Assembly: GCF_001579945.1 (NCBI RefSeq)
Contig: NZ_CP011971.1
Coordinates: forward strand, 894,001 to 958,000
Source: Steroidobacter denitrificans
GTDB taxonomy: Bacteria; Pseudomonadota; Gammaproteobacteria; Steroidobacterales; Steroidobacteraceae
DNA: 64,000 nucleotides
Reading direction: 5' to 3'
Each line of letters starts with the position of its first letter. Position 1 is the stretch's first letter. The notes below the pieces were generated by a model that was not told the DNA's origin, searched no databases, and saw only the letters and a program-made list of their open reading frames with translations. Positions 1,420-28,458 of the stretch are shown here, in pieces. Made by a program: the position numbers and the translations under genes.

Positions 1420-1434
1420 GCGTTGAGCAACCCC

Positions 1435-1458
1435 GTGTAGCGCAAAAAAATGCTACAC
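1435..1458. promoter_or_regulatory. Inverted repeat in the AraC/TonB-receptor divergent intergenic region
   Basis: GTGTAGC (1435-1441) and GCTACAC (1452-1458) form perfect 7-bp arms around a 10-bp A-rich spacer. It lies between the AraC start (1419) and the receptor start (1501), so it is a candidate operator. No confident -10/-35 pair was found nearby. Confidence 0.4.
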
Positions 1459-1500
1459 CAGCTAGCCTTGACAGGCAATTCCAGCCAGGGGGTTCAGAGC

Positions 1501-3951: not shown

Positions 3952-4003
3952 AAGGCCTCGATGCACTCAAATGCTGAAATGCTGATGTGAGGATTTTCGG
4001 ATC

Positions 4004-8801: not shown

Positions 8802-9314
8802 ATGCAGACCATCGAGCACGGTGCCATCCCGCTCCGGGAGATGGCGGATCGCATGGCCATCACCGAGGTGATTTACAGCTACTGCAGGGCGATGGATCGC
8901 ATCGATGCCGAACTTGGCTACTCCGTCTGGCATGAGGACGGCGAGGCCGACTATGGCGCGATCTATCGCGGCAGCGGCCGTGGTTTCGTCGACTGGGTCT
9001 GCGAGGTGCATCGCACCATGCAGACGCTCTCGCATCAGGTGTCGAACGTGCTCATCACACTCGATGGTGATCGGGCGAGGAGCGAAAGCTGCGTCACCGC
9101 GACGCTGCGCCGCCAGGACGGCGGACGGCTCCTGCAGACCACGGCGTGGGGGCGTTATGTCGATCGCTGGTCGCGCCGCGGCGGACGCTGGGCGATCGAC
9201 CGGCGCATCTATTTGCACGATTTCGATGAACTGCGTGAGGTCACGGCCAGCGCCACGCCGGTCACCGGTCGCCACGATCGTAGCGACCCGTCGTACTCGG
9301 TGCTGGACCCATGA
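8802..9314 (+). CDS. SnoaL-like (NTF2-fold) protein, bile-acid dehydratase-like
   Basis: 170 residues behind GGGAGGAG. It has the NTF2-fold pattern of the SnoaL_4 family. Y27 and D32 (YCRAMD) plus H78 (SHQ) match in order and rough spacing the Tyr/Asp/His triad known from bile-acid 7alpha-dehydratase BaiE, so a dehydratase or isomerase on a polycyclic or alicyclic substrate is plausible. Its stop overlaps the SDR start (ATGA), implying translational coupling. The family also contains non-catalytic members. Confidence 0.72.
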   Translation: MQTIEHGAIPLREMADRMAITEVIYSYCRAMDRIDAELGYSVWHEDGEADYGAIYRGSGRGFVDWVCEVHRTMQTLSHQVSNVLITLDGDRARSESCVTATLRRQDGGRLLQTTAWGRYVDRWSRRGGRWAIDRRIYLHDFDELREVTASATPVTGRHDRSDPSYSVLDP

Positions 9315-10120
9315 AACTCGGCATCGAAGGCCGCCGGGCACTGATCGTCGGCTCGAGCAGCGGCATCGGCGCCGGCATCGCTGTCATGCTCGCCGCCGAG
9401 GGAGTCGAGGTGATCGTGCACGGCCGGAGTCTCGAGAATGCCGAGGCGGTGGTGGCGGAAATCCGGGCGGCAGGCGGCAGGGCGTCCGCATTGATCGGCG
9501 TGCTGGACAAGCCGGAGGCGGTCGAGCGGCTTGCCGCTGAAACGCTTGCTACAGGTCCGATCGATATCCTTGTCAACAGTGCCGGCGCCACGATCTCCGT
9601 CCGTGGCTGGTTCGAGGTGCCGATGGAGGTTTGGCAACAGCAATACCAGTTCTCGACGCTGTATGCGGTGCAACTGATCCGTGCCCTGGTGCCCGCCATG
9701 CGCGAGCGTGGCTGGGGACGGGTGCTGAACATCAGCAGCGGTGCCGCTTTCAAGCCGATGGCCTTTCATCCCGAGTATTCGGCAGCGAAACTGGCGCTGC
9801 ACACCATCGCCTGCTCGCTGGCGCGCGAACTCGGTGACTGCGGTGTGACGATCAACACCTTGATCTCCGGGCTGGTGATGACCATGAACACTCGGGCGAT
9901 GATACAAAAGACCGCCCAGGCACAGGGCTTCACCGAGACCGGTGTGGAACTGGAGCGGCGCGTGCTGCGGGAAGTGTGGCGTTCGGCCATTCCGATCGCC
10001 CGCGCCGGCAGGGTGGAGGAATTGGCCGCCGCAGCCTGTTTCCTGGTGTCGGAGCAGGCTGCCTATATCACTGGTGCATCGCTGCGTGTCGATGGTGGAG
10101 GGGCAGGCTACGTGAACTGA
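9311..10120 (+). CDS. Short-chain dehydrogenase/reductase
   Basis: 269 residues, a classical SDR. The nucleotide-binding motif GSSSGIG is at 14-20, NSAG at about 89-92, and catalytic S142/S143, Y156 and K160 fit the YxxxK pattern. C-terminal GGGAGYVN follows the usual substrate loop. It probably interconverts a hydroxyl and a ketone on the pathway intermediate; in this island that could generate the ketone used by the carboxylase at 14068-18973. It overlaps the SnoaL-like gene by 4 bp. Confidence 0.92.
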   Translation: MKLGIEGRRALIVGSSSGIGAGIAVMLAAEGVEVIVHGRSLENAEAVVAEIRAAGGRASALIGVLDKPEAVERLAAETLATGPIDILVNSAGATISVRGWFEVPMEVWQQQYQFSTLYAVQLIRALVPAMRERGWGRVLNISSGAAFKPMAFHPEYSAAKLALHTIACSLARELGDCGVTINTLISGLVMTMNTRAMIQKTAQAQGFTETGVELERRVLREVWRSAIPIARAGRVEELAAAACFLVSEQAAYITGASLRVDGGGAGYVN

Positions 10121-11179: not shown

Positions 11180-11959
11180 ATGAATGCAGCGACTGCACAC
11201 ATCGTCACTGAAAGACTTCAGGGGGTGTTGCGGGTGGAGATCCGCCGCCCGGAGAAAAAAAATGCCCTGACTGCGGCGATGTATGGGCAATTGGCCGATA
11301 TTTTCCAGGACGCTGCCGGCGACAAGGACACCCGTGTGCTGCTGCTCCACGGACAGCCGGGCGTATTCACGGCCGGAAACGACCTCGGCGAGTTCCTGAA
11401 TGATCCGCCCATGAACGAGGATGCGCCGGTCTTTCGGTTTCTAGCGGTCTTCCGGGACTTTCCCAAGCCCTTCATGGCCGCGGTGACGGGACCGGCCGTC
11501 GGCATCGGCACGACGATGCTGCTGCATTGCGATCTGGTCTACGCAGGCGAGGGAGCGAGGTTTCAACTGCCTTTCGTCGGCCTCGGTCTTTGTCCGGAGG
11601 CGGCTTCCAGCCTGTTGCTTCCGGCCTTGGTCGGTCACGCCCGGGCGGCGGAGATCATTCTGCTGGGCGAGCCTTTCGGCGCGCAGCAAGCCCGCGAAAT
11701 CGGTCTGGTCAATGCAGTATTGCCCGATGCCGGACTGCTGGATCATGCGCTTCTCCAGGCCCGCAAGCTGGCGGCGCAGCCTCCGGCGGCGGTGCGGCTG
11801 TCGAAGCAGCTTCTGAAGCGCTCGCAGACGGCCCTGATCGCGGCGGCCATGGAGGAGGAAGATCGGCAGTTCAAGGTGCGGCTGGTTTCGCCGGAAGCCA
11901 AGGAAGCCTTCGGTGCATTTCTGGACAAGCGGCCGCCGGATTTTTCGCAGTTCTCGTGA
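11180..11959 (+). CDS. Crotonase-fold enzyme, enoyl-CoA isomerase (ECI-like)
   Basis: 259 residues. The oxyanion-hole segment AAVTGPAVGIG and HCDLVYAGEGARFQLPF are typical crotonase sequence. The two glutamates of true hydratases are replaced (Thr in the GTTM position, Phe in QLPF), while GLCPEAASS has the Glu that serves as general base in Delta3,Delta2-enoyl-CoA isomerases. I therefore infer isomerisation of a double bond in a CoA ester rather than hydration. It is a single plus-strand gene between minus-strand units. Confidence 0.83.
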   Translation: MNAATAHIVTERLQGVLRVEIRRPEKKNALTAAMYGQLADIFQDAAGDKDTRVLLLHGQPGVFTAGNDLGEFLNDPPMNEDAPVFRFLAVFRDFPKPFMAAVTGPAVGIGTTMLLHCDLVYAGEGARFQLPFVGLGLCPEAASSLLLPALVGHARAAEIILLGEPFGAQQAREIGLVNAVLPDAGLLDHALLQARKLAAQPPAAVRLSKQLLKRSQTALIAAAMEEEDRQFKVRLVSPEAKEAFGAFLDKRPPDFSQFS

Positions 11960-11984: not shown

Positions 11985-12878
11985 CTACCATGATGCCGTA
12001 GCCTCCATGCATTTTTCTCCGGCAGCCGATTGTGTCCAGCAACGCAGACTGCCGTCGGTCTGACGCCGGCCGCAGACAAGAAATGTTCCGCCGGCAATCA
12101 ACGGGGCGACACCGCGATAGTCGAAGATGCGCGGCGTACCGCCGCCGATCGTGGCCGCGAGATTCAGCAGCAGGCTGGCCTGTAGCGGGCCATGGACGAC
12201 CAGACCTGCGTAACCCTCGGTGCCGGTTGCGTAGGGCAGATCGTAATGGATGCGATGGCTGTTGAAAGTCAGGGCGGAATATCGAAACAAAAGGACGGGC
12301 GATGCCGGTACGCTCCACATCAGATCGCATTGTGGGGCGGGAGCGCTTGTGGCTGCGTCCATGGCGCCTGTTCGAGGCTTGTCCGAGGCCGGGTCTGCGG
12401 CCGGGCTGGAGGCTGGCTTTGCGGCCGGCGGCGCGACGTCCCGATAGACCAGGTCCTGGCGTTCACGGATGGCCGGACCGCGTTCCGTGGTGAACTCGTG
12501 CTCGACGGTGACGAAACAGAGGGTGCCCGAACGGCCTTCCTTGCGGGTGATGGCACCGATCCGGGAGCGACGCATCACCGGGTCGCCCGGTTGCAAGGGG
12601 GCAATCGTTTCCACGCATCCGCCCGCCCACATGCGTCGCGGCAACGGTATCGGCGGCAGGAAATCCCCCGTCACCGGATGGCCGTCGGCGCCGATCCGGG
12701 AGGCCTCGGCGGCTTCGGGTGCAAGACACCAGTGGATCGCCGGCGGTGCCTCGCCGGGCGTGGCGCCGGCGAGATTGGGTGCCAGGGTGGCGCGGTAGGC
12801 GTCGATCAGGCGAGGCGTGAGCGTATCGGCATGCTCGCGAGTGCGGCCGATCCACTGTTCCAGGGCGGAGAGTTCCAA
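11985..12878 (-). CDS. HTD2/mesaconyl-CoA-hydratase-like MaoC-family dehydratase
   Basis: 297 residues with a proposed TTG start at 12878, 10 bp after the stop of the upstream crotonase. This start matches the usual family opening (LEQWIGRT) and avoids a 74-bp overlap from the GTG at 12962. The C-terminal half has the double-hotdog signature FRYSALTFNSHRIHYD with GLVVHGPLQASLL, as in HTD2 and 3-methylfumaryl/mesaconyl-C4-CoA hydratases. The N-terminal half is the MaoC_dehydrat_N-like hotdog. An Ala/Pro-rich linker (about 175-205) separates them. It likely hydrates or dehydrates an enoyl-CoA intermediate. Confidence 0.82.
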   Translation of the reverse strand: MELSALEQWIGRTREHADTLTPRLIDAYRATLAPNLAGATPGEAPPAIHWCLAPEAAEASRIGADGHPVTGDFLPPIPLPRRMWAGGCVETIAPLQPGDPVMRRSRIGAITRKEGRSGTLCFVTVEHEFTTERGPAIRERQDLVYRDVAPPAAKPASSPAADPASDKPRTGAMDAATSAPAPQCDLMWSVPASPVLLFRYSALTFNSHRIHYDLPYATGTEGYAGLVVHGPLQASLLLNLAATIGGGTPRIFDYRGVAPLIAGGTFLVCGRRQTDGSLRCWTQSAAGEKCMEATASW

Positions 12879-12888
12879 GGCGGCGTTC

Positions 12889-13716
12889 TCAATAACCGCT
12901 ATACTTCGGCTCGCGGCCGTCGCGTATGGCGCGGAGCACTTCCTTGGCGTCCTCGCTCGCACTGCATTGCATCATGTTATAGGCCTCGAGTTCGATGACC
13001 TGCTCCAGCGTCATCGATTCCGCGGCATTGAGGCTGCGCTTGATATAGCGGTAAGCCACCGGCGGGCCGCGGTCCAGGCGGTTCGCGAACGCCTGGGTTT
13101 CGGTTTCGAGTTCGGTATCGGGGACGACACGATTGACCAGACCGATGCGCAGGGCCTCATCCGCTGCGATCTTGTCGCCGAGCAGATAGAGCTCCCGCGC
13201 CTTGGCGGGGCCGACGACACGGGGGAGAAGATAACTGCCGCCGAAGTCGCCGGGCCGTGCCGCCCTGACGTAGGCCGTGGCGAACGAGGCCGTCTGCGAG
13301 GCGATGCGGAAATCGCATGCGGCAGCCAGGCACAGACCGGCGCCGACGACAGGGCCGCGCAGCATCGCAATCGTCGGCTTGGGCATGGTGTGCAGCAGGA
13401 TCGGCGATTGGCTGAGCCGCTTGACATGCGAAGCCCGCATGCCGACCGATTTCCACACCGGATCCGCGGACCATCGGACACTGACAGGATCCCCCGCATC
13501 GATCTGTTCGCGGCTGCGCAGATCCCCGCCCGAGCAGAATCCTCGGCCCGTACCGGTCAATACGACGACTCTCACGCCGGGGTCGACGCTGGCTTCTTCC
13601 AGCGCCTCGTTGAGCAGCCGCATCAGCTCCCAGGTCAGCGCATTGAGCTGCGCCGGCCGATTGAGCGTCAGGGTCAGAATGCCCTCGATCTGCTGTTTGA
13701 GCAGCACGGATGTCAT
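12889..13716 (-). CDS. Crotonase-fold enoyl-CoA hydratase/isomerase family protein
   Basis: 275 residues with crotonase landmarks NALTWELM, GRGFCSGGDL and LRGPVVGAGLCLAAACD. The hydratase glutamates are absent (GLCLAAACD; FATAYV). RPGDFGGSYLLPRVVG has an Asp placed like the acid/base of PaaG-type isomerases. Ring-opening or isomerising chemistry on a cyclic CoA ester is therefore possible, but this is inference. It is upstream of and nearly abutting the HTD2-like gene, and preceded by a short ORF. Confidence 0.82.
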   Translation of the reverse strand: MTSVLLKQQIEGILTLTLNRPAQLNALTWELMRLLNEALEEASVDPGVRVVVLTGTGRGFCSGGDLRSREQIDAGDPVSVRWSADPVWKSVGMRASHVKRLSQSPILLHTMPKPTIAMLRGPVVGAGLCLAAACDFRIASQTASFATAYVRAARPGDFGGSYLLPRVVGPAKARELYLLGDKIAADEALRIGLVNRVVPDTELETETQAFANRLDRGPPVAYRYIKRSLNAAESMTLEQVIELEAYNMMQCSASEDAKEVLRAIRDGREPKYSGY

Positions 13717-14067: not shown

Positions 14068-16212
14068 ATGCAGCGATTTCTCGCCGCCTGTGACGCAGGC
14101 GGGACGATGACCGACGTGATCCTTGTCGATGAAACGGGCCGTTCCGTCGTAGGCAAGGCAGCCACTACCCCACACGACGAGAGCATCGGCTACATGGAGG
14201 CGCTTTTCGAGGCGCTCGATTATTTCGAGATTCCCAAGGAAGCGCAGCAAAGCTTCGGAGCTCATCTCGAGACCGCGATCTATACCGGCACCTCGATGCT
14301 CAACTGCGTGATCAATATGTCCGGCTACAAGACGGGCCTGATCACCACGCGGGGCTTCGAGGATATCAATGCCCAGGGCCGCGGCAAGCAGACCTTCATC
14401 GGCCTGCAGTGGTCCGAGATCAGCCACATGCAGTACCGCCGGCATCGCACGCCGCTGGTACCGCGGAAGCTGGCGCGCGGCGTCACCGAGCGCATCGACA
14501 TGTTCGGCAAGGTCATCATTCCACTCTACGAACACGAAGTGGAGCAGGCGGCCCGCGAGCTGATCGTCGATGAGCAGTGCCAGTCGATTGCCATCGTCTT
14601 TCTGCAATCCTACAAGAATGCCGAGCATGAAGAGCGTGCCGAGGCCATTGTGCGAAGCGTCATGCAGAAGGCCGGCCGCGATATCCCGATAGAACTCTCG
14701 AGCCGGGTCGCGCCGACCATGCGCGAGATCTCCCGCGCCAATTCGACCATCGTGCAGGCCTATGCGACCGATCCGGCCCGCAAGCAGCTTTTCCGCATCG
14801 AGGCCGAGCTCAAGAAGATCGGCTACCGGCACAGTCTCAAGACCGTGCTTGGTTATGGTGGCGTGACCAATATTCGCTATCCGCGTCTGTTCGAAGCCGC
14901 CATGTCCGGTCCGGTCGGCGGACTCATGGGAGCGAAATATCTCGGCAGTGTGATCGGCGAGCAGAACATCGTCTGCTCGGACGTCGGCGGCACCTCCTTC
15001 GATGCCGGCTGCATCACGGCCGGCGCCGTGCCGATCGAGCGGGAGCCTGGATTCCAGGACATGTATTTGACGGCGCCGATGCTGAGCATCACTTCGATCG
15101 GTGCCGGAACCGGCACTTACATCCGTATCGATCCGGCCACCAACCGCATCAAGCTGGGGCCTGATTCCGCGGGCGGTACGCCGGGACCGACCTTCATGGA
15201 AGCCGGCAATACCACGCCGACCATCAACGATGCCAATCTGCTCCTGGGCATACTCAACGAGCACAACTATCTTGGCGGCAAGGTCAACGTCAACAAGGAA
15301 ACCTCCTATCGCCTGTTCAAGGAAAAGGTTGCCGAACCGCTGGGTCTCGATGTCTACGATGCCTGCGAAGTCTGTATCGACCTGCTGAACATCCAGATGC
15401 GCGAACATTTGGTGCGCAGTCTCATGGTCGGCCGGGATTTGCGCGACTATGTTCTGCTGGGCTATGGCGGCGGCGGGCCGCTGCACCTCCTGCCCTATGC
15501 GGGCGATCATCCCTATAAAGCCGTGATCACCGTTCCCTGGGCGGGCGGGTTCTCGGCCTGGGGTGGAGCCTGCATGGATTACGCCCATCGGCGTCACAAG
15601 ACGGTATCCGTGGTCGTCGCACCCGACGCCAGCGACGCCGAGCGTCTGGCCGCGGTGCAGCCGATGGTGGAAATCTGGGATCAGCTGCGCAATGAACTGG
15701 TCGAGGAGCTGGTGGCCGAGGGTTTCGCCAAGAATTCCATACGCATTCAACCGGTGGCCTATGTGCGCTACTACGGTCAGCTGGAGGACGTCGAAGTTCC
15801 GCTGCCAGTGGCCAACATCGCCTCGACGAGCGATCTGCAGGCGCTGATCGCGCGCTTCGAGGAAATCTACACGCGCATGTTCACGCTTGCCGGCAAGCCG
15901 GATGTCGGGATCTACCACATCACCGAGGTCTGCGTGGTGGCCACGGTGGAAACCGTCAAGCCGCGGCTGGTCCGCAATGAGCTGGCGGACAAGGCTCCGC
16001 CGGCCAACGCCGTGAAGGGTACGCGCAAAATCTATCAGAAGGGCAAATGGCTGGATGCCAACATCTACAAGATGGAAAACATGCTGCCGGGCAATGAGGT
16101 GGACGGTCTGGCCGTGATCGAGGCCTCCAACACCACTTTGTTTGTTCCACCCGAGTGGCACGTCCGCATCGACGAGTACAACGTCTACTGGATGACGAGG
16201 AAGGATCGATAA
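14068..16212 (+). CDS. Acetone-carboxylase-type ketone carboxylase, beta subunit (HyuA-like)
   Basis: 714 residues from ATG 14068 (AGAGGTGA at 14053-14060). It is a hydantoinase A/oxoprolinase-family ATP-binding subunit, with phosphate-binding motifs CDAGGTMTD (8-16) and SDVGGTSFD (304-312). Length and gene order match AcxA of acetone carboxylase, which splits ATP to phosphorylate ketone and bicarbonate. The next two genes are the matching alpha and gamma subunits, abutting. The family also includes acetophenone and other ketone carboxylases, so the ketone cannot be named. The CoA and hydrotropic genes around it suggest a larger ketone than acetone. Confidence 0.88.
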   Translation: MQRFLAACDAGGTMTDVILVDETGRSVVGKAATTPHDESIGYMEALFEALDYFEIPKEAQQSFGAHLETAIYTGTSMLNCVINMSGYKTGLITTRGFEDINAQGRGKQTFIGLQWSEISHMQYRRHRTPLVPRKLARGVTERIDMFGKVIIPLYEHEVEQAARELIVDEQCQSIAIVFLQSYKNAEHEERAEAIVRSVMQKAGRDIPIELSSRVAPTMREISRANSTIVQAYATDPARKQLFRIEAELKKIGYRHSLKTVLGYGGVTNIRYPRLFEAAMSGPVGGLMGAKYLGSVIGEQNIVCSDVGGTSFDAGCITAGAVPIEREPGFQDMYLTAPMLSITSIGAGTGTYIRIDPATNRIKLGPDSAGGTPGPTFMEAGNTTPTINDANLLLGILNEHNYLGGKVNVNKETSYRLFKEKVAEPLGLDVYDACEVCIDLLNIQMREHLVRSLMVGRDLRDYVLLGYGGGGPLHLLPYAGDHPYKAVITVPWAGGFSAWGGACMDYAHRRHKTVSVVVAPDASDAERLAAVQPMVEIWDQLRNELVEELVAEGFAKNSIRIQPVAYVRYYGQLEDVEVPLPVANIASTSDLQALIARFEEIYTRMFTLAGKPDVGIYHITEVCVVATVETVKPRLVRNELADKAPPANAVKGTRKIYQKGKWLDANIYKMENMLPGNEVDGLAVIEASNTTLFVPPEWHVRIDEYNVYWMTRKDR

Positions 16213-18408
16213 ATGACCAGCCAGCTGAAGCTCAAAGAGCAGCTCAAAGTAAATGATGAGCTGTTCGCGAAAACGGGCTGCATGTTCGGCCTCGAGAAGC
16301 TCACAGAAAAGGAAAACAATCCCGGGCTCTACGAAGCGGTGTGGCATATTCTGCTGAGTGTATGCAATACGGCGTGGGAAGTCGGTTGCAAGGTCTCGGC
16401 CTCGCCGGTCGCCGCAGAGGGCGGCGATGCGCTCTGGGCGCTGCACACCCCGACGGGTGAATGTATTTGTACCTCGTACGGCATCACTGCGCATGTCGGC
16501 TTGCTGGCCGCCATGGTGCGCAAGTTCATCGAGATGGGTTACGAGGATTCGCCGGGCTTCAAGCAGGGCGATATTTTCGAGAACAACGATCCGCACTATG
16601 GCGGCATCCACATGCCCGACATGGATACCGCCATGCCTATCTTTTACAAGGGCAAGCTGGTGGCCTGGGCATCCTCGGTGACCCACGTCGCCGATGCCGG
16701 CGCGGTGCTGCCGGGATCGATCAACTTCATGAATCCCGACACCTTCTCCGACGGCATGCCGGTATCGCTGGAAAGGATCGGTGAGAACGATCGTTACTAT
16801 CCGTGGTATGAACTGCGCATCAAGTCGCGCACGCGGGCGCCGGATTGGGTGCTGGGCGATGCGCGCGGTCGTCTCGCCGGCCTCATCACCGTGCGCGAGA
16901 AGCTGCTGGAGACCATCGAGAAGTATGGTCTGGAATTCTTCGAGAAGGCTTCGCGGGAATATATCGAAGACAGCCGCCGCTATGCGGTGGCGCGCATCCG
17001 CAATCAGGCGGTGCCGGGACGCGTGCGCAAGTCGCAGTTCAAGGATCTGACCTTGAAGGGCAAGGTCGTCATCATGCCCAAGCAGGATATCGACCTGCTG
17101 TCCAATGTGCCGATGGAAATGCGCATCGATGCGAATGCCAATGTACACCTGTCTCTTGCCGGGGCCAGCGGCAGCGTACCCTTCGGCCAGAATATCACCC
17201 CGACGGCGTTGTCCTCCGCGCTGCTCATGGGCTATTCGCATGTCGTGGGCTTCGACATGTTCAACTCGGGGCCGACTTTTGCGCTGACGGTCGATACGCC
17301 GCCGCCGGGCTCGTGGTGCAATCCCTTCCCGGTCGACTGGTTCGCCTCCACCGGCATGGGCTGGTCATCGGCGATTCGCTGGCTGAGTTCGCTCTACGAA
17401 GTCACGGGACGGCTGTATTACATGCGTGGTTTCGTGGAGGAGATGTCCGCCGGTGCGGGCACCACCATGGCAGCCGAGTGGCATGGCACCAATCAGTACG
17501 GGCAGTATGCCGTTTGCCTGACGCTCGAGCAGGCCAGCAACGGCTCTCCGGCGCGCGGCATCGCCGACGGAGAACCAGCCGCCTGGTGTCTGTATACCGC
17601 GAACGCCGACTTCGGCAATGCCGAGGTGATGGAGCTGTATTATCCCTTCATGTATCTAGGCCGGAACATGGAGCCGGATTCGGGCGGCTATGGCAAGTTC
17701 CGCGGCGGCATGGGCCATACCACGGTATGGATGGTGATGAACACCCCGGAGATCCATTATTCGGCGGCCTGCGCCGGCGCAAACAGCAAGATCACGGCCA
17801 ATCACGGCATGTACGGCGCATATCCGATGCCCGGCGATCGGGTTGCCTATGCGGCCGGAACCAACGTCAAGGAATTGATCGAACAACGTAAGCCGCTGGT
17901 GCATGAGCGCGGCCTGGATCCCGATTATCCGACACTGTCCCAAAATATCGTGGCGGATGTTCTGAACAACGATGTCGTCGTTCCCGCAAACATTCCCGAG
18001 ACGCTGCACGAGTACGATCTCGTGATCAATCCGACCTCGGGCTCCCAGGCCATGGGGGATCCCATCGAACGGGATCCGGCGCTCGTCAAGGACGACCTTG
18101 ACAAGGGGTTGACCCGGCCCTGGGTGGCCGAGAACATCCACGGTGTCATTGCCCGCAAGGAGGCCAACGGCGATTGGCTCGTGGATGAGGATGCGACGAC
18201 GGAGAAGCGCCGTCTCATATGCGAGGCGCGCAAGCAGCGCGGCGTACCTTTCAGAGAGTGGTGGCAGCAGGAGCGCAAGCAGATCGTGGCGGGCGCGAAC
18301 ATGGATGAAGCCGTGAAGCGAATGTGGCGCAGCTCCATGAAGCTGTCACCCGGATACGCGGCCGAACTGCGCGCGTTCTGGAACCTCCCTGCCGATTTTG
18401 AATTTTGA
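16213..18408 (+). CDS. Acetone-carboxylase-type ketone carboxylase, alpha subunit (HyuB-like)
   Basis: 731 residues, ATG directly after the TAA of the beta subunit gene. HyuB-family protein carrying the carboxylation site. H133, D136 and H158 have the same 3- and 22-residue spacing as the three Mn ligands reported for Xanthobacter AcxB (as recalled, H150, D153, H175), within NDPHYGGIHMPDMD and SVTHVADAG, so the metal site looks intact. Length is close to AcxB. The predicted reaction joins a phosphorylated enol and carboxyphosphate to give a beta-keto acid. Confidence 0.88.
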   Translation: MTSQLKLKEQLKVNDELFAKTGCMFGLEKLTEKENNPGLYEAVWHILLSVCNTAWEVGCKVSASPVAAEGGDALWALHTPTGECICTSYGITAHVGLLAAMVRKFIEMGYEDSPGFKQGDIFENNDPHYGGIHMPDMDTAMPIFYKGKLVAWASSVTHVADAGAVLPGSINFMNPDTFSDGMPVSLERIGENDRYYPWYELRIKSRTRAPDWVLGDARGRLAGLITVREKLLETIEKYGLEFFEKASREYIEDSRRYAVARIRNQAVPGRVRKSQFKDLTLKGKVVIMPKQDIDLLSNVPMEMRIDANANVHLSLAGASGSVPFGQNITPTALSSALLMGYSHVVGFDMFNSGPTFALTVDTPPPGSWCNPFPVDWFASTGMGWSSAIRWLSSLYEVTGRLYYMRGFVEEMSAGAGTTMAAEWHGTNQYGQYAVCLTLEQASNGSPARGIADGEPAAWCLYTANADFGNAEVMELYYPFMYLGRNMEPDSGGYGKFRGGMGHTTVWMVMNTPEIHYSAACAGANSKITANHGMYGAYPMPGDRVAYAAGTNVKELIEQRKPLVHERGLDPDYPTLSQNIVADVLNNDVVVPANIPETLHEYDLVINPTSGSQAMGDPIERDPALVKDDLDKGLTRPWVAENIHGVIARKEANGDWLVDEDATTEKRRLICEARKQRGVPFREWWQQERKQIVAGANMDEAVKRMWRSSMKLSPGYAAELRAFWNLPADFEF

Positions 18409-18418
18409 GGAGGTCGCC

Positions 18419-18973
18419 ATGGCCGAGTATGACATTTACGACGTCGAGGACATCCGCAAGCTGGTAGACGGGGAGCTTCCCTGGACCACTGTCCAGCAGA
18501 TGATGAAGAACGGCAAGGATCGCGACCGCTTCGACAAGTGGCTCGTGATCCTGCAGGGGCGGGTGCCCTGGAAGGAGAAGATTCTGTTGCCGCTGACCCC
18601 GGCGCTGTTCATCGTGCAAAAGCCGAAGGAGCGCGTGGTGAAATGCCGTTGCGGGCATGAGTTCGGCGATTATCGCGTCAACTGGAAGCTTTCGGCGCTT
18701 ATCTACGTGCGCGATAGCGACGAGAAGATCTCCGAGGTGTATCGCGGCCATGAAAAGCCCGACACCGAGTGGATTCAGTTGCGCGAATATTACTGCCCCG
18801 GTTGCGGCTCGCAGCTGGAAGTGGAAGCCATGCCGCGCGGCTGTCCGCCGGATTTCGAATTCCTGCCCGATCTCGACACCTTCTATCGGGAATGGATCGG
18901 CCGGCCGCTGCCCGAGACGGTCGAATTCGTCGATCGGACGCCGGAGCGAATCAAGGAGTGGACGTCTCGATAG
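18419..18973 (+). CDS. Acetone-carboxylase-type ketone carboxylase, gamma subunit
   Basis: 184 residues from ATG 18419, right behind GAGGAGG; this is better supported than the in-frame start at 18398. Two metal-binding knuckles, CRC (76-78) and CPGC (126-129), match the small zinc-binding gamma subunit of acetone carboxylase (AcxC-like), a fold seldom found elsewhere. Its presence distinguishes this system from hydantoinases and oxoprolinases, which have only A and B subunits. Confidence 0.9.
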   Translation: MAEYDIYDVEDIRKLVDGELPWTTVQQMMKNGKDRDRFDKWLVILQGRVPWKEKILLPLTPALFIVQKPKERVVKCRCGHEFGDYRVNWKLSALIYVRDSDEKISEVYRGHEKPDTEWIQLREYYCPGCGSQLEVEAMPRGCPPDFEFLPDLDTFYREWIGRPLPETVEFVDRTPERIKEWTSR

Positions 18974-19114: not shown

Positions 19115-20296
19115 ATGGATTTCGAATTTTCTTCGGAGGAACGCCGCTTCCTGGCAGAGGTGGACCAGTTCCTGCAGGATAACTATGACCCCAAGGCCAT
19201 GGACGTCACGCGCGAGAACATGGCGCAGATCTGCGATACACCGGAGCGCCGGGCGTTCGCCAGAAAGCTTGCCAAGAAAGGCTGGCTGGGGATCACCTGG
19301 CCGAAAGCATACGGTGGACAGGAAGGCAGGGGCTTCTACGAGTATCTGTTGAACGAGAAGCTGTCTTCCGTCGGCGCGCCGCAAATCGGCAAGGGTGTCG
19401 GGATCATCGGCAAGACCTTGATCAAGGTCGGTTCGGAAAAGCTCAAACAGGAGTTTTTGCCGAAAATCCTTAACGCCGAAATCGAATTCGCAGTGGGCTA
19501 CTCCGAACCCTCGGCGGGCTCGGACTCCGCCGCCATGCGCCTGAAAGCGGAGCGCCGCGGCGATGGTTGGGTGCTGAACGGACAAAAGGTGTTCAGCACC
19601 TCGGCGCACTTTGCCGACTGGTATTGGGTCGGCGCACGCACCGACCCGGAGGCGCCCAAGCATCATGGCATCACCCTGTTCCTGGTTCGCATGGACGATC
19701 CGGGACTCACGCTGCATGCCATGCCTACGATGGGCGGGGAGCGCACCAACGCGGTGTTCTTCGACGATGTATTCGTACATGACGACTATCGGGTCGGCCA
19801 GCTCAACAAGGGCTTCCAGTACATCGCCGAGGCGCTCGATATCGAGCGCTTCACCATGTTCACCTTTTCACCGATTCGCGCCCGGGTTGAACTGCTGTGC
19901 GACTATGTGAAGCAGGCCACGCAGGATGGCAAGCCTCTGAAGGAGGATCCCGTCATACGCCAGCGGGTGGCGCAGCTCGCCACCGAGTGCGAGGTGGCAC
20001 GGCTGCTCGGCGTACGCTTCGTCGATTCCGCCCTCGATGCTTCGAAAACCCCGACGGTGCCGGCTTCGGAGTACAAGCTTTATGCCACCGAGCTGTCGCG
20101 CCGTGTGGCCGACGCCACCATGGATATCGCCAGCCCGGGTTCGCAGCTAGCCTTGGGTACCGAGGATGCGCCGCTCAAGGGTCGCGCGGAAAGCTGCTAC
20201 ACCTATACGGTGATCGACACCATCGGCGGCGGCTCCTCGGAGGTGCAAAAGAACATCATCTGCAAGCGCAAGCTTGGGCTGCCGCCGAACTTCTAG
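19115..20296 (+). CDS. Acyl-CoA dehydrogenase
   Basis: 393 residues. N-terminal helical domain (MDFEFSSEERRFLAEV), FAD/substrate strand region VGYSEPSAGSDSAAM and TSAHFADWYWVGART, and C-terminal helical domain ending IGGGSSEVQKNIICKRKLGLP, the flavin-contacting tail. It introduces an alpha,beta double bond in an acyl-CoA. A second, divergent dehydrogenase lies at 22543; such unlike pairs often form alpha2beta2 complexes acting on steroid or isoprenoid CoA esters (ChsE-type), which the flanking MaoC pair also recalls. Confidence 0.92.
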   Translation: MDFEFSSEERRFLAEVDQFLQDNYDPKAMDVTRENMAQICDTPERRAFARKLAKKGWLGITWPKAYGGQEGRGFYEYLLNEKLSSVGAPQIGKGVGIIGKTLIKVGSEKLKQEFLPKILNAEIEFAVGYSEPSAGSDSAAMRLKAERRGDGWVLNGQKVFSTSAHFADWYWVGARTDPEAPKHHGITLFLVRMDDPGLTLHAMPTMGGERTNAVFFDDVFVHDDYRVGQLNKGFQYIAEALDIERFTMFTFSPIRARVELLCDYVKQATQDGKPLKEDPVIRQRVAQLATECEVARLLGVRFVDSALDASKTPTVPASEYKLYATELSRRVADATMDIASPGSQLALGTEDAPLKGRAESCYTYTVIDTIGGGSSEVQKNIICKRKLGLPPNF

Positions 20297-20311: not shown

Positions 20312-21472
20312 ATGGCATTGCTCAGCGGTTATAAGGTTCTGGATCTCGCCAGTGTGGGGCCCGCGGCGCGCGCCTCGCGTATCCTGGCTGATTACGGCAT
20401 GGACATCATCAAGGTCGCGCCGGTCTCGGCCAAGGGAGCCAAGCAGATCGAGCCCGTGTTCCATGCCTATGGCGCAGGACGCGGTACCCGGCAGATCCGT
20501 GTGGATCTGAAGTCGCCGGAGGGCAGGCGAGCCGTCGAACGGCTCGTCGAAGGCGTCGATGTGGTGATCGAAAGTTATCGCCCCGGCGTGGCGCACCGGT
20601 TGGGCGTCGGCTACGAGGATCTCAGGGCGATCAATCCCAGGATCGTTTATTGCTCGACCAGCGGTTACGGCCAGGATGGGCCCTGGTCGCAATGGGCGGG
20701 TCATGACATCAACTACGTGGCGGTCAGCGGCTACCTGGCCTGCAGCGGCCGCGATGCCGAGGGCCGCCCCGCCATGCCGGGAGCCACAGTCGGCGACAGC
20801 GCCGGAGGCGGCATGCAGGCGGCATTGGCCGTGATCGCCGCGTTGCTGCATGTGGCGAAGGGGGGTGAAGGCCGGCATCTCGATGTATCGATCACCGACG
20901 GCATGCTCAATCTGATGTCGCTGTATATCGATCGGTTCCTGGCGACGGGCGAAGAGACCCATCCGGGTTCCGATGTGCTGACGGGCAGGTACGCCTGGTA
21001 TGGCGTTTACACTTGTGCAGACGGGCGATATGTCTCGATCGGCCCGGTCGAGGGGCATTTTTTCAAAAACCTTTGCCGCCTGCTGGAGCTGGAGCAGTAC
21101 AGCGCCAGCCAATATGACGATGCCAAACAGGACGAGATGCGTGCGGCGTTCGCGCAGCGCTTCCTGACCAAGGAGCGCGATGCCTGGGTGGCTGCACTCG
21201 CCGGCCAGGATACCTGCCTGGCGCCGGTGCTTTCGATCGCCGAGGTTGCAGCGAGTCCGCATCTGCGGGCGCGCCGGAGTTTCATGCGTGCGCGCCATGC
21301 CGAGCGGGGCAGCTTCGAGCAGCTCGCGCCGGTATTGGCCGGCGGTGAGCGGCAACAGCCCGAACATCAGGTGCGTACCGCCGGCACGACGGATACGGAG
21401 ACCGTACTGGCGGCGGCAGGATTTTCCACCGACGAAATCGCGGAGTTGCGCCGTTGCGGCGCGGTCGAGTAG
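20312..21472 (+). CDS. CaiB/BaiF family protein, alpha-methylacyl-CoA racemase-like
   Basis: 386 residues, single-domain family III protein. WAGHDINYVAVSG with H131, and GDSAGGG with D162, correspond to the His/Asp acid-base pair of alpha-methylacyl-CoA racemase; GHDINY is a strong racemase signature. It probably epimerises a 2-methyl-branched acyl-CoA so that a stereospecific acyl-CoA dehydrogenase can act, as in steroid side-chain or pristane breakdown. A CoA-transferase role remains possible because the same Asp serves both chemistries. Confidence 0.8.
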   Translation: MALLSGYKVLDLASVGPAARASRILADYGMDIIKVAPVSAKGAKQIEPVFHAYGAGRGTRQIRVDLKSPEGRRAVERLVEGVDVVIESYRPGVAHRLGVGYEDLRAINPRIVYCSTSGYGQDGPWSQWAGHDINYVAVSGYLACSGRDAEGRPAMPGATVGDSAGGGMQAALAVIAALLHVAKGGEGRHLDVSITDGMLNLMSLYIDRFLATGEETHPGSDVLTGRYAWYGVYTCADGRYVSIGPVEGHFFKNLCRLLELEQYSASQYDDAKQDEMRAAFAQRFLTKERDAWVAALAGQDTCLAPVLSIAEVAASPHLRARRSFMRARHAERGSFEQLAPVLAGGERQQPEHQVRTAGTTDTETVLAAAGFSTDEIAELRRCGAVE

Positions 21473-21512: not shown

Positions 21513-22037
21513 GTGACAGAGATAGCGAGTGATCTGCCTGCAGTAGTGCGCGAGCTGATCGGCAAGCCGCACTACGTGGAGCAGACCGAGTTTCCCATCG
21601 AAATCGGCTACGTCTATAACATGTGCGCGGCGGTACAGGACGGTAATCCGCTGTACTGGGATCCGGAAGCGGCACAGGCCATCACCGGTGGGCAGATCGC
21701 ACCGCCGGCGATGTTGTCGGCCTGGTTCAAACGGCATCATTGGATGCCGGGCGCCGAGGGCGATCGCAAGCCGATGCAGCTGTATTTCGACATCAAGGAT
21801 ATGGTCGGCCTGCCCGAGGGTATCGTCGCCAGCAACGAAGTAAGCTTCGGCGAGCCGGTGCGTATCGGCGATATACTGACCACCAGCCAGTACTGCCGTT
21901 CACTGGGTGAACTCAAAGACACCAAGCTCGGCCGCGGCCGCTTCTGCACCATGGATGTCGTGACGGTCAATCAGCACAACGACTGGTGCGGCACCGATAC
22001 CTATCATTTCCTCATCTACATCAAGGGTGCCCGATGA
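21513..22037 (+). CDS. MaoC_dehydrat_N-type hotdog protein
   Basis: 174 residues, GTG start behind AGGAG. It has the FAS1-like/MaoC N-terminal dehydratase fold pattern (GGQIAPPAMLSAW, SNEVSFGEPVRIGD). The typical catalytic Asp-His pair is not evident, so it is probably the non-catalytic partner of the next protein. Genes of this kind next to a second MaoC protein form heteromeric enoyl-CoA hydratases such as ChsH1/ChsH2. Its stop overlaps the next start (ATGA). Confidence 0.8.
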   Translation: MTEIASDLPAVVRELIGKPHYVEQTEFPIEIGYVYNMCAAVQDGNPLYWDPEAAQAITGGQIAPPAMLSAWFKRHHWMPGAEGDRKPMQLYFDIKDMVGLPEGIVASNEVSFGEPVRIGDILTTSQYCRSLGELKDTKLGRGRFCTMDVVTVNQHNDWCGTDTYHFLIYIKGAR

Positions 22038-22516
22038 GCACCGTGCGCAATCTGACTTTCGGCGAAGTCGAAGAGGGCCAGGAGCTGCCGCCGCTGACGT
22101 ATCCGGTGACGGCCACCACGGTGGTGCTCGGAGCGATCGCCAGCCGCGACTGGCGGCCCATGCACCACGATCGGGATTTCGCGATCAACCGCAGCGGTAC
22201 TAAGGACATCTTCATCAATACGCCGACCAACGCCGCTTGGTTCCAGCGTTTCGTGACCGATTGGACGGGCCCCAAGGGGCGGCTCGGCAAAATGAAGTTC
22301 AAGATGAAGATTCCGGTATTTCCCGGTGACGCGATGACTCTGTCGGGCCGTGTGACACGCAAGTCGGTGGATGATACCGGCTGTTGCTGGATCGATCTCG
22401 ATCTCGCCGTGTCGGTGGGCGACAAGCTGAATACCGAGTGCCAGGCGCGCTTCGCGCTGCCTGCCGATGCCGACGATAACCCCTGGCAACGCCGCGGCGA
22501 ACGCTGGCGGCCCTGA
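22034..22516 (+). CDS. MaoC-like enoyl-CoA hydratase
   Basis: 160 residues from the ATG at 22034, which overlaps the stop of the upstream MaoC gene by 4 bp; an in-frame upstream start lies inside that gene. DWRPMHHDRDFA contains the Asp/His of the hydratase motif (D-x4-HxD-like), and KMKIPVFPGDAMTLSGRVTRK is the family's C-terminal strand. It is inferred to be the catalytic half of a heteromeric hydratase acting after the acyl-CoA dehydrogenases. Confidence 0.82.
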   Translation: MSTVRNLTFGEVEEGQELPPLTYPVTATTVVLGAIASRDWRPMHHDRDFAINRSGTKDIFINTPTNAAWFQRFVTDWTGPKGRLGKMKFKMKIPVFPGDAMTLSGRVTRKSVDDTGCCWIDLDLAVSVGDKLNTECQARFALPADADDNPWQRRGERWRP

Positions 22517-22542: not shown

Positions 22543-23706
22543 ATGGATCTGAAATTCACCGATGAACAAAACATGCTGCGCGAGACGACTCGAGCGCTAT
22601 GCCGCGACACGAGCGGCGTGGACGTCGTGCGGCAGATGGAGAACGATCCTCTCGGCGTGCCCGAGAAGCTCTGGGCAAACATGCGGGAAGCCGGGTTGAC
22701 GGGGATTCTCGTACCCGAGCAGTACGGCGGCCTGGGGCTGGATCAGCTGAGCTGCGTGGTCATCTATGAGGAACTCGGGCGGGCGCTGGCTCCGGGACCG
22801 CATTTTGGCTCTGCAGTCATGAGCGTGCTGGCGCTGCGCGAAGCCGGCAGTGCGGCACAGCAGGAGGCATTGCTGCCGGGGCTCGCCAGTGGAGAGACCA
22901 TCATCGTGCCCGCCTGGCTCGAACCGGATCGCGGCTACGGTCCCGAGGGCGTGCGGCTCGTGGCCAAGCGCAGCGGCGAGGATTATCGGTTGACGGGTAT
23001 CAAGCGCCACGTGTTCCATGCCAAGGCGGCCGAGAAGCTCCTGGTGCTGGCCCGCACGGGTGAGGGCGCCGATGGAATCGACCTGTTCCTGGTGGATACG
23101 AACGCCAAGGGCCTCACGCTCGAACAACAAAAAAGCATGGCTTCCGATACCCAGTATCGCGTCGCTTTCGACGACGTCGTGGTGTCGGCCGCCCAGCGCC
23201 TGGGGGCTTCCGGCTGCGGCTGGCGCAGTTGGGAGGCGGCCATGTACCGCGGCATCGTTCTGCTGGCTGCCTTTGCCGCCGGCGGGGCGGAGCGGGCACT
23301 GGAAATCACGGTGCAGTACTCGAAGGATCGCCAGCAGTTCGGCAAACCCATCGGCGCCTTCCAGTCGCTCGCCCACTACATGGCGGATGCCAGTCCGGTA
23401 TCCGAGGGAGCGAAAATGCTGGCCTACGAGGCAGCCTGGGCGCACGATCAGGGCAAGGATATTCTGCGTCTGGCACCGATGGCGAAGCTGTTTTGCTGCA
23501 AGGCATTCCGCGACATCACGCATATGGCCCAGCAGGTGCACGGCGGAATCGGCTTCACGCTGGACTACGATATCCAGCTCTATTACCGCCGGGCCAAGCA
23601 GCTGCAGCTGAACTGGTGGGATTCGCGCTATCTGGAGAAACTGATCGCCGCGGATGTGCTCGACCGGCCGAACGTGCGCACCATAGCCGATCCATTTACG
23701 CCCTGA
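22543..23706 (+). CDS. Acyl-CoA dehydrogenase
   Basis: 387 residues behind GAGGAA. Sequence landmarks are MDLKFTDEQNMLRETTR, the YGGLGLDQL core helix, and a C-terminal domain with YSKDRQQFGKPIGAFQSLAHYMAD and QQVHGGIGFTLDYDIQLYYRRAK. It differs clearly from the dehydrogenase at 19115 and may be its heterotetramer partner. Immediately followed by the nitronate-monooxygenase-like gene. Confidence 0.92.
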   Translation: MDLKFTDEQNMLRETTRALCRDTSGVDVVRQMENDPLGVPEKLWANMREAGLTGILVPEQYGGLGLDQLSCVVIYEELGRALAPGPHFGSAVMSVLALREAGSAAQQEALLPGLASGETIIVPAWLEPDRGYGPEGVRLVAKRSGEDYRLTGIKRHVFHAKAAEKLLVLARTGEGADGIDLFLVDTNAKGLTLEQQKSMASDTQYRVAFDDVVVSAAQRLGASGCGWRSWEAAMYRGIVLLAAFAAGGAERALEITVQYSKDRQQFGKPIGAFQSLAHYMADASPVSEGAKMLAYEAAWAHDQGKDILRLAPMAKLFCCKAFRDITHMAQQVHGGIGFTLDYDIQLYYRRAKQLQLNWWDSRYLEKLIAADVLDRPNVRTIADPFTP

Positions 23707-23717
23707 GCGGCGGCACC

Positions 23718-24701
23718 GTGCCAGTCCTGTCATCGATCAAGGATCAGCTGACACTGCCGGTGCTGTGCTCGCCGATGTTCATCGTGTCGACGCCGGCGCT
23801 GGTGTTCGCGCAATGCACGAACGGCATCATCGGCTCCTTCCCCGCGCTGAACGCACGCGGGGAAGGCATGCTCGAGGAATGGCTGACCGGCCTGGAGCAG
23901 CAGCTGGAAATCCATCGCGCGGCGAATCCGGAAAAAAAGGTCGCGCCGTTCGCCGTGAATCAGATCGTGCATCAGAGCAATACGCGTCTGGATGCGGATT
24001 TCGATGTACTGGAAAGGCACAAGGTGCCGCTGGTCATCACCAGCCTGCGTGCGCCCACCGAGTATGTGCCGCGCATTCATGCCTGGGGCGGGCGGGTATT
24101 GCACGATGTGACCAATATCCGGCATGCGGAAAAGGCGCTGGAGGCGGGCGTCGATGGATTGATCCTGGTCTGCGCGGGTGCCGGCGGACACTCGGGCGCA
24201 CTCAGCCCGATGGCGTTGGTGAGCGAAGTGCGGCGCATCTACGACGGCCTGGTGGTACTGGCCGGCAGCATCACCCGGGGTGAGCATATTCTGGCGGCGC
24301 TGGCGATGGGTGCCGACCTGGCATATATGGGCACGCGCTTCATCGCCACCGAGGAGGCGAATGCGGTACCGGATTACAAGCGCATGATCGTCGAGGCAGG
24401 CGCCAGCGACATTCTGTATACGCCTTACTTCTCCAGCACCCACGGCAACTACCTGAAACCTTCCATCCGCGCTGCCGGCCTGGATCCCGACAATCTGGTG
24501 CGCGCGCCGGGCGAAACCGCAAAGATGGCCTTCATCAGCGCCGATGGTTCCCGCAGCGTGGGGGTCAAGACCTGGAAGGACATCTGGAGCGCCGGTCACG
24601 GTGTGGGGGCCGTCGATGACATCCCGTCCGTAACCAAACTGGTCGCGCGTCTGCAGACACAGCTCGCTGCAGCGCGGGCACATCTGTGCGCATCGCTGTA
24701 A
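23718..24701 (+). CDS. Nitronate monooxygenase-family flavoprotein, IpdC-like
   Basis: 327 residues from GTG 23718, 11 bp after the upstream stop. FMN-binding TIM barrel of the 2-nitropropane dioxygenase family: LPVLCSPMFIVS, CAGAGGHSG (active-site His segment) and VVLAGSITRGEHILAALAMGADLAYMGTRF. In steroid ring C/D catabolism a family member, IpdC, acts as a hydroxyacyl-CoA reductase and its gene lies beside ipdAB; the fused IpdAB-like gene next door suggests the same kind of role here. A true nitronate monooxygenase is less likely in this context. Confidence 0.82.
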   Translation: MPVLSSIKDQLTLPVLCSPMFIVSTPALVFAQCTNGIIGSFPALNARGEGMLEEWLTGLEQQLEIHRAANPEKKVAPFAVNQIVHQSNTRLDADFDVLERHKVPLVITSLRAPTEYVPRIHAWGGRVLHDVTNIRHAEKALEAGVDGLILVCAGAGGHSGALSPMALVSEVRRIYDGLVVLAGSITRGEHILAALAMGADLAYMGTRFIATEEANAVPDYKRMIVEAGASDILYTPYFSSTHGNYLKPSIRAAGLDPDNLVRAPGETAKMAFISADGSRSVGVKTWKDIWSAGHGVGAVDDIPSVTKLVARLQTQLAAARAHLCASL

Positions 24702-27564: not shown

Positions 27565-28458
27565 AAAGGGGACAGATTTATTTTCGCGTATTTTCGCGAT
27601 CTTCGTTAACTCGGCTTGACTTTCTTCTAGACTCTCGATCAGGAGTGTCATGCTGAGGGAACGGTATGCTAAGGATCGGCCGGTTGGTAGTGGAAGGATA
27701 TCCCCATCATGTGGTGCAACGCGGGCACAATCGACACGTCGTATTCGCAGCTCATGAGGATTACGAGCGGTACTTGAGCGACGTACGAGAGTTGAAGCAG
27801 ACGTTTGGAGTTCGGCTGCATGCCTACTGTCTGATGACCAATCACGTACATCTGTTGTTGGAGCCGCGAGAGACACGTGCGGCGCTGGGCACGTTCATGA
27901 AAGCCCTGGCGGCGCGCGCCACTCGCTACCGCAACCGTCTGGAAGGGCGTTCAGGCACGTTGTGGGAAAGTCGCTACAAATCCAGTCTGGTTCAGACGGA
28001 CACCTATCTGCTGGCCTGTTGCCGCTATATCGAACTCAATCCCGTTCGTGCTCGTGTAACAGCCAGTCCAACGGATTATCCGTGGTCGAGCGCGCCGGAG
28101 CGGTTGGGGCAGAAGCCCGCAGACCTGCTGGACTGGAGTCCAAGCTACCTGTCACTGGGGTGCAGCGAAGCCGAGCGCCAGAGCGCCTATGCACGCTATT
28201 TGCTGGAAGCCATCCCGGACAGCGAATGGGTGTTGATTCGAAAATCCCTGCAGCGCGGACAATTGACCGGAGCCGGCAAGTTCGTCGACGAAATCGAGAA
28301 AATCACGGGTATCCGAGTCGAACATCGAGGCCGGGGGCGGCCCAGGAAGCAGGTCGTTGAGGGGAGAGGGCAATAACAGGGGAGGGCGAATAATAAATCT
28401 GTCCCCATTTGTCCGCATTTGTCCGTGTCACGCAGCGATAATAAATCTGTCCCCATTT
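27563..28458. mobile_element. RAYT-type element with inverted ends
   Basis: The left end AAAAAGGGGACAGATTTATT (27563-27582) is inverted relative to AATAAATCTGTCCCCATTT at 28392-28410 and again at 28440-28458, so the right side has two direct copies 29 bp apart. The transposase gene fills the interior. Such ends are typical of REP-associated tyrosine transposases. The element sits between the yggS stop and the Usp gene, whose ribosome-binding site directly follows the outer right copy. Confidence 0.8.
27666..28376 (+). CDS. REP-associated tyrosine transposase (Y1_Tnp, RAYT)
   Basis: 236 residues. The HUH-like metal motif is H60-V-H62 in MTNHVHLLLEP, and the nucleophilic tyrosine is Y121 in CCRYIELNPVRA. 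Conserved VVQRGHNRHVVF lies near the N-terminus and a basic tail at the C-terminus. RAYTs are single-copy, domesticated IS200/IS605 relatives that act on REP-like hairpins. The frame is intact and all active-site residues are present, so the protein could still be functional. Confidence 0.92.
   Translation: MLRIGRLVVEGYPHHVVQRGHNRHVVFAAHEDYERYLSDVRELKQTFGVRLHAYCLMTNHVHLLLEPRETRAALGTFMKALAARATRYRNRLEGRSGTLWESRYKSSLVQTDTYLLACCRYIELNPVRARVTASPTDYPWSSAPERLGQKPADLLDWSPSYLSLGCSEAERQSAYARYLLEAIPDSEWVLIRKSLQRGQLTGAGKFVDEIEKITGIRVEHRGRGRPRKQVVEGRGQ

Follow-up and report, generated by a model that had tools for sequence, protein, structure and literature searches.

An acetone-carboxylase-type enzyme among steroid-type genes of Steroidobacter denitrificans and its possible part in anaerobic ring degradation

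Which ketone is the substrate of a three-subunit enzyme of the acetone carboxylase type that is encoded among genes of steroid type? The question is raised by a stretch of 64,000 nucleotides from Steroidobacter denitrificans (RefSeq assembly GCF_001579945.1, contig NZ_CP011971.1, positions 894,001 to 958,000; called the window below), in which acxA, acxB and acxC are surrounded by genes of acyl-CoA metabolism. The characterised acetone and acetophenone carboxylases have methyl ketones as their substrates. Here, the enzyme family, the metal ligands and the linkage of the locus to steroid genes are observed directly. On the basis of these links, we will argue that AcxABC probably belongs to a steroid pathway.

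Subunits, ligands and phylogeny of the carboxylase

The three reading frames are intact and adjoin each other with almost no gaps (Table 1), and they have the sizes given in the original prediction, a note made from the sequence alone that had announced a complete acetone-carboxylase-type enzyme. In the PDB, the best match of the beta subunit is the acetone carboxylase beta subunit 5svb (540 bits, compared to 317 bits for acetophenone carboxylase), that of the alpha subunit is 5m45 (362 and 163 bits, respectively), and that of the gamma subunit is 5svb_C (154 and 39 bits). The matches of the subunits rank in the order Xanthobacter acetone carboxylase, acetophenone carboxylase, and then caprolactamase and hydantoinases. 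The NCBIfam models for acetophenone carboxylase and caprolactamase score far under their cut-offs on these proteins.

In the alignment with 5m45, residues H133, D136 and H158 of the alpha subunit coincide with the manganese ligands H150, D153 and H175, which confirms the metal site that had been proposed. The mobile fourth metal ligand, E89 in the Xanthobacter enzyme, is replaced by D72, and this position is one of six alpha-subunit columns that are invariant in 19 other acetone-carboxylase-type sequences and altered throughout the three-membered window clade. Since the E89D variant of the Xanthobacter enzyme has an activity close to that of the wild type, while E89A is dead (PMC12250083), D72 appears compatible with catalysis, and the change should preserve it. 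In the gamma subunit, C76, C78, C126 and C129 align with the cysteines at the structural zinc site positions of the Xanthobacter autotrophicus acetone carboxylase (XaAC), and the orthologues of acxA in relatives are 84-91% identical. From this it can be predicted that 14068-18973 very probably encodes an ATP- and bicarbonate-dependent ketone carboxylase.

In a tree of 25 alpha subunits, the window protein forms a single clade on a long stem (100/100 support) together with those of the relatives KLAP178 (90% identity) and G639 (74%). The clade falls outside the 13-row clade that contains the Xanthobacter acetone carboxylase (100/99), and also outside the acetophenone carboxylase (Apc) group, and beyond it the identity is at most about 35%. 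The enzyme does not, then, lie within the true acetone or acetophenone carboxylases, and its gene neighbours are conserved (see below), so that the original prediction withstands its own test of refutation. Judged by its sequence, AcxABC is a deep-branching variant within a known kind of enzyme. It resembles the X. autotrophicus AcxABC (5m45, 5svb and 5svc; PMC5543143) in having three subunits including gamma, in its His/Asp/His and mobile carboxylate ligands, and in the nearly gapless gene order beta-alpha-gamma. It differs from it in the alpha subunit, which is only 31% identical, shorter (731 compared to 776 residues) and has Asp in place of Glu89, as well as in its own deep clade and its steroid-type neighbours.

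Apc of Aromatoleum aromaticum (5l9w; PMC5214803) also catalyzes an ATP-dependent carboxylation, in its case of a bulky methyl ketone, and its printed alignment likewise has Asp at the E89 position. However, the Apc core consists of two HyuA-type subunits and a separate epsilon subunit, whereas the window locus has one HyuA-type gene; the alpha subunits are only 25% identical and the gamma-type match is weak. With the Apc models far below their cut-offs and the placement outside that group in the tree, an identity as Apc was rejected.

A second three-subunit carboxylase, with the order alpha-gamma-beta and about 29-30% identity, is found in G639 (contig C97, locus L028), where it adjoins a TonB receptor, an enoyl-CoA hydratase and acyl-CoA dehydrogenases, and in G149 (contig C21, L039). 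It possibly represents another undescribed group of ketone carboxylases.

Steroid genes of the genome and the conservation of the locus

The source genome (G000) has a HIP-type cluster at about 81-94 kb. Its IpdA, which matches the solved IpdA 6co6 with 244 bits, is followed by IpdB, DUF35, a thiolase-like Ltp, and IpdC-, EchA20- and FadE-like genes (the set from IpdA to EchA20 lies at ~81-86 kb), and the thiolase and short-chain dehydrogenase of the cluster score above their family cut-offs. A further cluster at 777-795 kb contains the sole MoCoBD_1 molybdenum enzyme of the genome, which is AtcA-like (at 780996), with FAD and 2Fe2S partners that are AtcB/C-like. It also holds an amidohydrolase, an acyl-CoA synthetase, two or three MaoC proteins, an Ltp with a ChsH2-type DUF35 protein, an acyl-CoA dehydrogenase (ACAD) pair and a KstD-like dehydrogenase. 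This is what an AtcABC-based 2,3-seco pathway should look like, and the KstD-like dehydrogenase and the HIP cluster, and probably the AtcA-like enzyme, are common to the anaerobic 2,3-seco pathway of Steroidobacter and Sterolibacterium (PMC6678751). The PF04909 amidohydrolase directly after the AtcA-like gene (G000:C1:783351-784331, L049) may be the hydrolase of the ring-A beta-diketone; it is 85-86% identical in G026 (L095/L096), G672 and G622, and is found in the same place in G755.

Among all 217 genomes of the family Steroidobacteraceae, the carboxylase clade is present in four, each of a different genus (G000, G622, G755 and G639), and the AtcA-like enzyme, at a threshold of at least 57% identity, in six. 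All four carboxylase genomes are among these six (Fisher p=1.7e-7), a value that is optimistic at the genome level because of shared ancestry; counted by genus, the same four out of 25 carry both (p=7.9e-5). In a sample at the class level, neither the carboxylase clade nor AtcA was found outside the source genome, which makes that sample uninformative about betaproteobacterial degraders.

A scan for loci related to the window gave only two close ones, both truncated. The window arrangement is kept in orthologues at 74-91% identity, which, together with the almost gapless genes, is far beyond chance. In KLAP178 the block from the AraC regulator through the alpha subunit is conserved (66-91%) with one CitE-like gene inserted, and CaiB2, MaoCa, MaoCb, the NMO-family gene and the CoA-transferase are on other contigs. 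The insert, a CitE/HpcH-type lyase (L004:5181-6053), lies between two enoyl-CoA hydratase (ECH) genes upstream of acxA and is absent from the window.

The G639 operon reads ACAD1-CaiB2-MaoCa-MaoCb-ACAD2-ECH-CaiB-AcxA-AcxB-AcxC-CaiB-CaiB-ECH-Ltp-DUF35, ending in a thiolase-like protein (Ltp) and a ChsH2-type OB/zinc protein (DUF35). In G000, the orthologues (73-82%) of the CaiB/CaiB/CaiB/ECH genes of this operon are outside the window; their position, 105184-109891, is directly downstream of the HIP cluster and near the methylmalonyl-CoA mutase, so that the carboxylase operon is physically tied to steroid ring degradation and propionyl-CoA. G026 and G672, which have AtcA in the genome, carry the operon ACAD1-CaiB2-MaoCa-MaoCb-ACAD2-CaiB-CaiB-ECH-CaiB-CaiB-CaiB-ECH-Ltp-DUF35, and in G026 the HIP cluster is present as well (mostly 75-92% identity). 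The ACAD1 orthologues in these three operons are 84-86% identical to the window protein.

In G639, G026 and G672, one operon brings together the enzyme classes of a known steroid module, plus a 2-methylacyl-CoA racemase-like protein. That module, which consists of heteromeric ACAD, heteromeric hydratase and aldolase, cuts off the C3 side chain of steroids and releases propionyl-CoA (PMC8399759). Unlike the module, the three operons encode several class III CoA-transferases, they are in genomes bearing androgen-type ring-degradation genes, and that of G639 includes acxABC. Synteny, co-occurrence with AtcA and the HIP links thus support the steroid-type acyl-CoA setting that had been suggested. 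Of the neighbours named at the time, the paired acyl-CoA dehydrogenases, the paired MaoC proteins and the racemase-like protein are upheld by Pfam and PDB matches, while the IpdC/IpdAB-like label was lost on sequence comparison.

Upstream of the ACAD1 operon, G026 (C3:115177) and G672 (C4:68622) have a second AtcA-like molybdenum enzyme, 57-58% identical to the first one and accompanied by ETF-like genes. G639 has a similar block on a separate contig (C129), and G000 has one such enzyme only. In addition, an extra amidohydrolase, ~40% identical to the one adjacent to AtcA, follows the operon in G026 and G672 and was not seen there in G000.

A possible role and its alternatives

In the 2,3-seco pathway, hydrolysis of the ring-A 1,3-diketone gives a C1 ketone with C2 as the methyl group, and the retro-aldol loss of acetyl-CoA (C3 and C4) yields 2,5-seco-3,4-dinorandrostane-1,5,17-trione. 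The steps from this trione to HIP, including ring-B cleavage, were called unknown in 2019 and 2021 (PMC6678751; PMC8399759), no carboxylation is described in the pathway, and for Sterolibacterium no candidate genes for ring-B cleavage were identified (PMC6678751). We consider it somewhat favoured by the evidence that AcxABC has been recruited to anaerobic steroid degradation of the 2,3-seco type, carboxylating a steroid-derived ketone on the way to HIP. A more specific version, which we put forward tentatively, is that AcxABC is a steroid methyl-ketone carboxylase acting on the 1,5-diketone left after ring A, with thiolysis and the opening of ring B leading on to HIP. What we infer in this scheme is the substrate, the order of the reactions, and which proteins act as thiolase and ring hydrolase.

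According to the mechanism of the family, the beta subunit would phosphorylate both bicarbonate and the ketone in its enolised form, which would then be joined at the metal site of the alpha subunit to form a beta-keto acid. The likeliest substrate would be the C1 methyl ketone (with C2 as CH3) of the 1,5,17-trione or of its ring-B-opened form. Carboxylation at C2 would be followed by formation of a CoA thioester, by the fused class III or the fused family I CoA-transferase, and thiolysis would then give acetyl-CoA and the C1 acyl-CoA, a cyclic beta-ketoacyl-CoA with its oxo group at C5. Hydrolytic opening of ring B at C5-C10 would produce the C8 propanoate of HIP and a C9-CH(CH3)-CO-SCoA unit, which could be epimerised by CaiB2, dehydrogenated by ACAD1/2 and hydrated by MaoCa/b before an Ltp/ChsH2-type aldolase makes the final cut to propionyl-CoA and the C9 ketone of HIP. 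The carbon balance of the scheme closes: C17 and CO2 correspond to acetyl, propionyl and C13 HIP (17 + 1 = 2 + 3 + 13). Moreover, ACAD1 and MaoCb have paralogues in the AtcA cluster (37% and 35% identical), and the two paralogous ACAD/MaoC modules of the genome match the two retro-aldol rounds that the scheme requires. The logic of carboxylation followed by activation in the original prediction, which had been thought to need perhaps little oxygen, is supported as an oxygen-independent one.

It is important to point out that several observations weigh against this role. AtcA and the operon are retained in G672 and in G026, whose genome is 100% complete, but both lack acxABC; the carboxylase is therefore either dispensable for that operon or replaced there by another solution for the same step. 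The window operon around acxABC has neither an Ltp/DUF35 aldolase nor a thiolase. The AtcA-like enzyme is a single PF02738 enzyme named from its family and gene neighbours, and several of the relatives are fragmented metagenome-assembled genomes.

The activation and cleavage steps had been assigned differently in the original prediction: a CaiB/BaiF protein was to activate the beta-keto acid, and an IpdAB-like fusion was to cleave a C-C bond. These genes are adjacent in the window, and in part again in the related loci L025 and L027. However, the 596-residue fusion matches glutaconate, acetate and butyrate-acetoacetate CoA-transferases in the PDB, and no IpdAB structure was matched in that search even at E=10. 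E402 of the fusion falls on the catalytic Glu of SENG in 5dbn_B and 8k9h_A (the ExG motif in the beta half), and the surrounding A-E-T-G-M-Y-G is invariant in two relatives. IpdAB of M. tuberculosis (6co6) shares with the fusion the family I CoA-transferase superfamily, but the genome's own IpdB reads TDSEAW at the site of the catalytic Glu, and the true IpdA and IpdB are encoded separately, elsewhere in the genome. An identity as IpdAB was rejected on these grounds; with the glutaconate-type match and the catalytic Glu, the fusion should be a CoA-transferase. A predicted structure of the fusion, made from three near-identical sequences, had a confidence (pLDDT) of only 31. CaiB2, for its part, is closest to 2-methylacyl-CoA racemase (MCR 1x74, 218 bits, compared to 141 bits for formyl-CoA transferase), with H131 in GHDINY and VGD at 160, which makes it a poor candidate for CoA activation. 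The co-occurrence of the carboxylase with the fusion is also incomplete, as the fusion is missing from the carboxylase-bearing G639, where two adjoining class III CoA-transferases could stand in for it. The route as originally drawn is consequently the least probable of those considered. By analogy with the CoA-transferase of acetone metabolism, the fusion possibly activates the beta-keto acid, and its membership of the acetoacetate-type superfamily weakens the earlier remark that no such transferase is nearby.

That same transferase would serve an ordinary acetone or butanone carboxylase for small ketones, placed by chance beside unrelated acyl-CoA genes, as its product would require one, and acetone carboxylases are the nearest characterised relatives of AcxABC. 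We find this highly improbable in view of the low identity to the XaAC alpha subunit, the separate long-stem clade, the neighbours that are conserved across four genera and common to a steroid operon, and the exclusive occurrence of the carboxylase in genomes with AtcA. In addition, sigma-54 regulators stand beside three of the plasmid-borne acetone-carboxylase-type loci examined, and none was seen at the window locus. Quite improbable, too, is a non-steroid isoprenoid or branched ketone for whose degradation a paralogue of the steroid module was recruited. The locus does have its own TonB receptor and AraC regulator, and upstream (854-894 kb) there is an extensive catabolic island rich in acyl-CoA, luciferase-like and SnoaL-like genes; the orthologues of the flanking genes, on the other hand, are found directly by the HIP cluster and next to the second AtcA-like enzyme, and the presence of the carboxylase tracks AtcA.

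The enzyme might also act on steroids at another position, either on the C20 methyl ketone of pregnanes (progesterone type) or on a cyclic ketone that is opened by retro-Claisen cleavage. Steroids contain methyl ketones and cyclic ketones alike, the racemase-like protein and the ACAD and hydratase pairs fit a side-chain route as well, and the two atcA genomes without acxABC are what an accessory entry route predicts. Thiolysis at C20 would, however, give a ring carboxyl-CoA rather than the 2-methylacyl-CoA suited to the racemase/ACAD/hydratase/aldolase set, and the methyl-ketone substrates of the characterised enzymes speak against a cyclic ketone. We regard these options as unlikely and retain the carboxylation of a ketone between the 1,5,17-trione and HIP as the preferred role.

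Surroundings in the window and wider meaning

The features of the window are collected in Table 1.

Table 1. Coordinates of acxABC and its neighbours in the window, with the basis of each assignment (L004 and L005 are loci of relatives).
Feature	Position	Strand	Basis
acxA-like, beta (nucleotide-binding) subunit, 714 aa	14068-16212	+	Hydantoinase_A N/core/C domains
acxB-like, alpha (metal) subunit, 731 aa	16213-18408	+	Hydantoinase_B
acxC-like, gamma subunit, 184 aa	18419-18973	+	Acetone_carb_G PF08882, E=1e-39
Acyl-CoA dehydrogenase subunit ACAD1	19115-20296	+	Pfam ACAD domains
CaiB/BaiF-fold protein CaiB2, 2-methylacyl-CoA racemase-like	20312-21472	+	PDB match MCR 1x74
MaoC-type hydratase subunit a (MaoCa)	21513-22037	+	FAS1_DH_region; orthologues in relatives
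MaoC-type hydratase subunit b (MaoCb)	22034-22516	+	MaoC_dehydratas
Acyl-CoA dehydrogenase subunit ACAD2	22543-23706	+	Pfam ACAD domains; 71-76% orthologues
NMO-family FMN oxidoreductase	23730-24701	+	PF03060
Fused family I (glutaconate-type) CoA-transferase, 596 aa	24726-26516	+	PDB matches and alignments
Fused pair of class III CoA-transferase domains	5033-7507	+	CoA_transf_3 twice
Short-chain dehydrogenase SDR	9311-10120	+	PF13561; 84% in L004
Enoyl-CoA hydratase superfamily ECH1	11180-11959	+	PF00378; 84% in L004, L005
FAS1_DH/MaoC-type hydratase	11985-12962	-	PF13452; kept upstream of acxA in L004, L005
Enoyl-CoA hydratase superfamily ECH2	12889-13716	-	PF00378; 89-92% in L004, L005
Upstream block: AraC-type regulator, TonB-dependent receptor, luciferase-like oxidoreductase	466-5023	-, +, +	Pfam

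The MaoCa and MaoCb genes overlap by 4 bp, and ACAD2 was not seen between MaoCb and the NMO-family gene in L025 and L027. The NMO-family protein resembles the IpdC of the genome (g84699) weakly (30% over 139 residues). The two halves of the fused class III CoA-transferase are 50% and 58% identical to the separate genes g102621 and g103878 that adjoin the HIP cluster, and the upstream block is 66-86% identical in the KLAP178 locus L024. Scans for promoters and terminators gave matches no more numerous than in shuffles. An IS200-type (Y1) transposase gene at 27666-28376 lies just past the end of the block of catabolic genes. The island upstream of the window (G000:C1:854000-894000; L051, L052) contains, besides the genes mentioned above, many acyl-CoA dehydrogenase and KstD-like genes. 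A beta-class carbonic anhydrase (Pro_CA) is encoded at 41774-42421, ~23 kb downstream of the carboxylase; a supplier of bicarbonate would suit the enzyme, but the two are probably unrelated.

A carboxylation step in the anaerobic steroid pathway is undescribed in the literature searched: full-text searches gave no paper that links acetone carboxylase to Steroidobacter denitrificans or to IpdAB, or "ketone carboxylase" to steroids. The locus supplies named genes and a carbon-balanced scheme for the oxygen-free opening of ring B, and with these the ring-B question can now be addressed by knockout and enzyme assay. If the scheme is true, the substrates of the ATP-dependent ketone carboxylases would include steroids besides small and aromatic ketones, and CO2 would be a co-substrate when hormones are degraded in anoxic wastewater.

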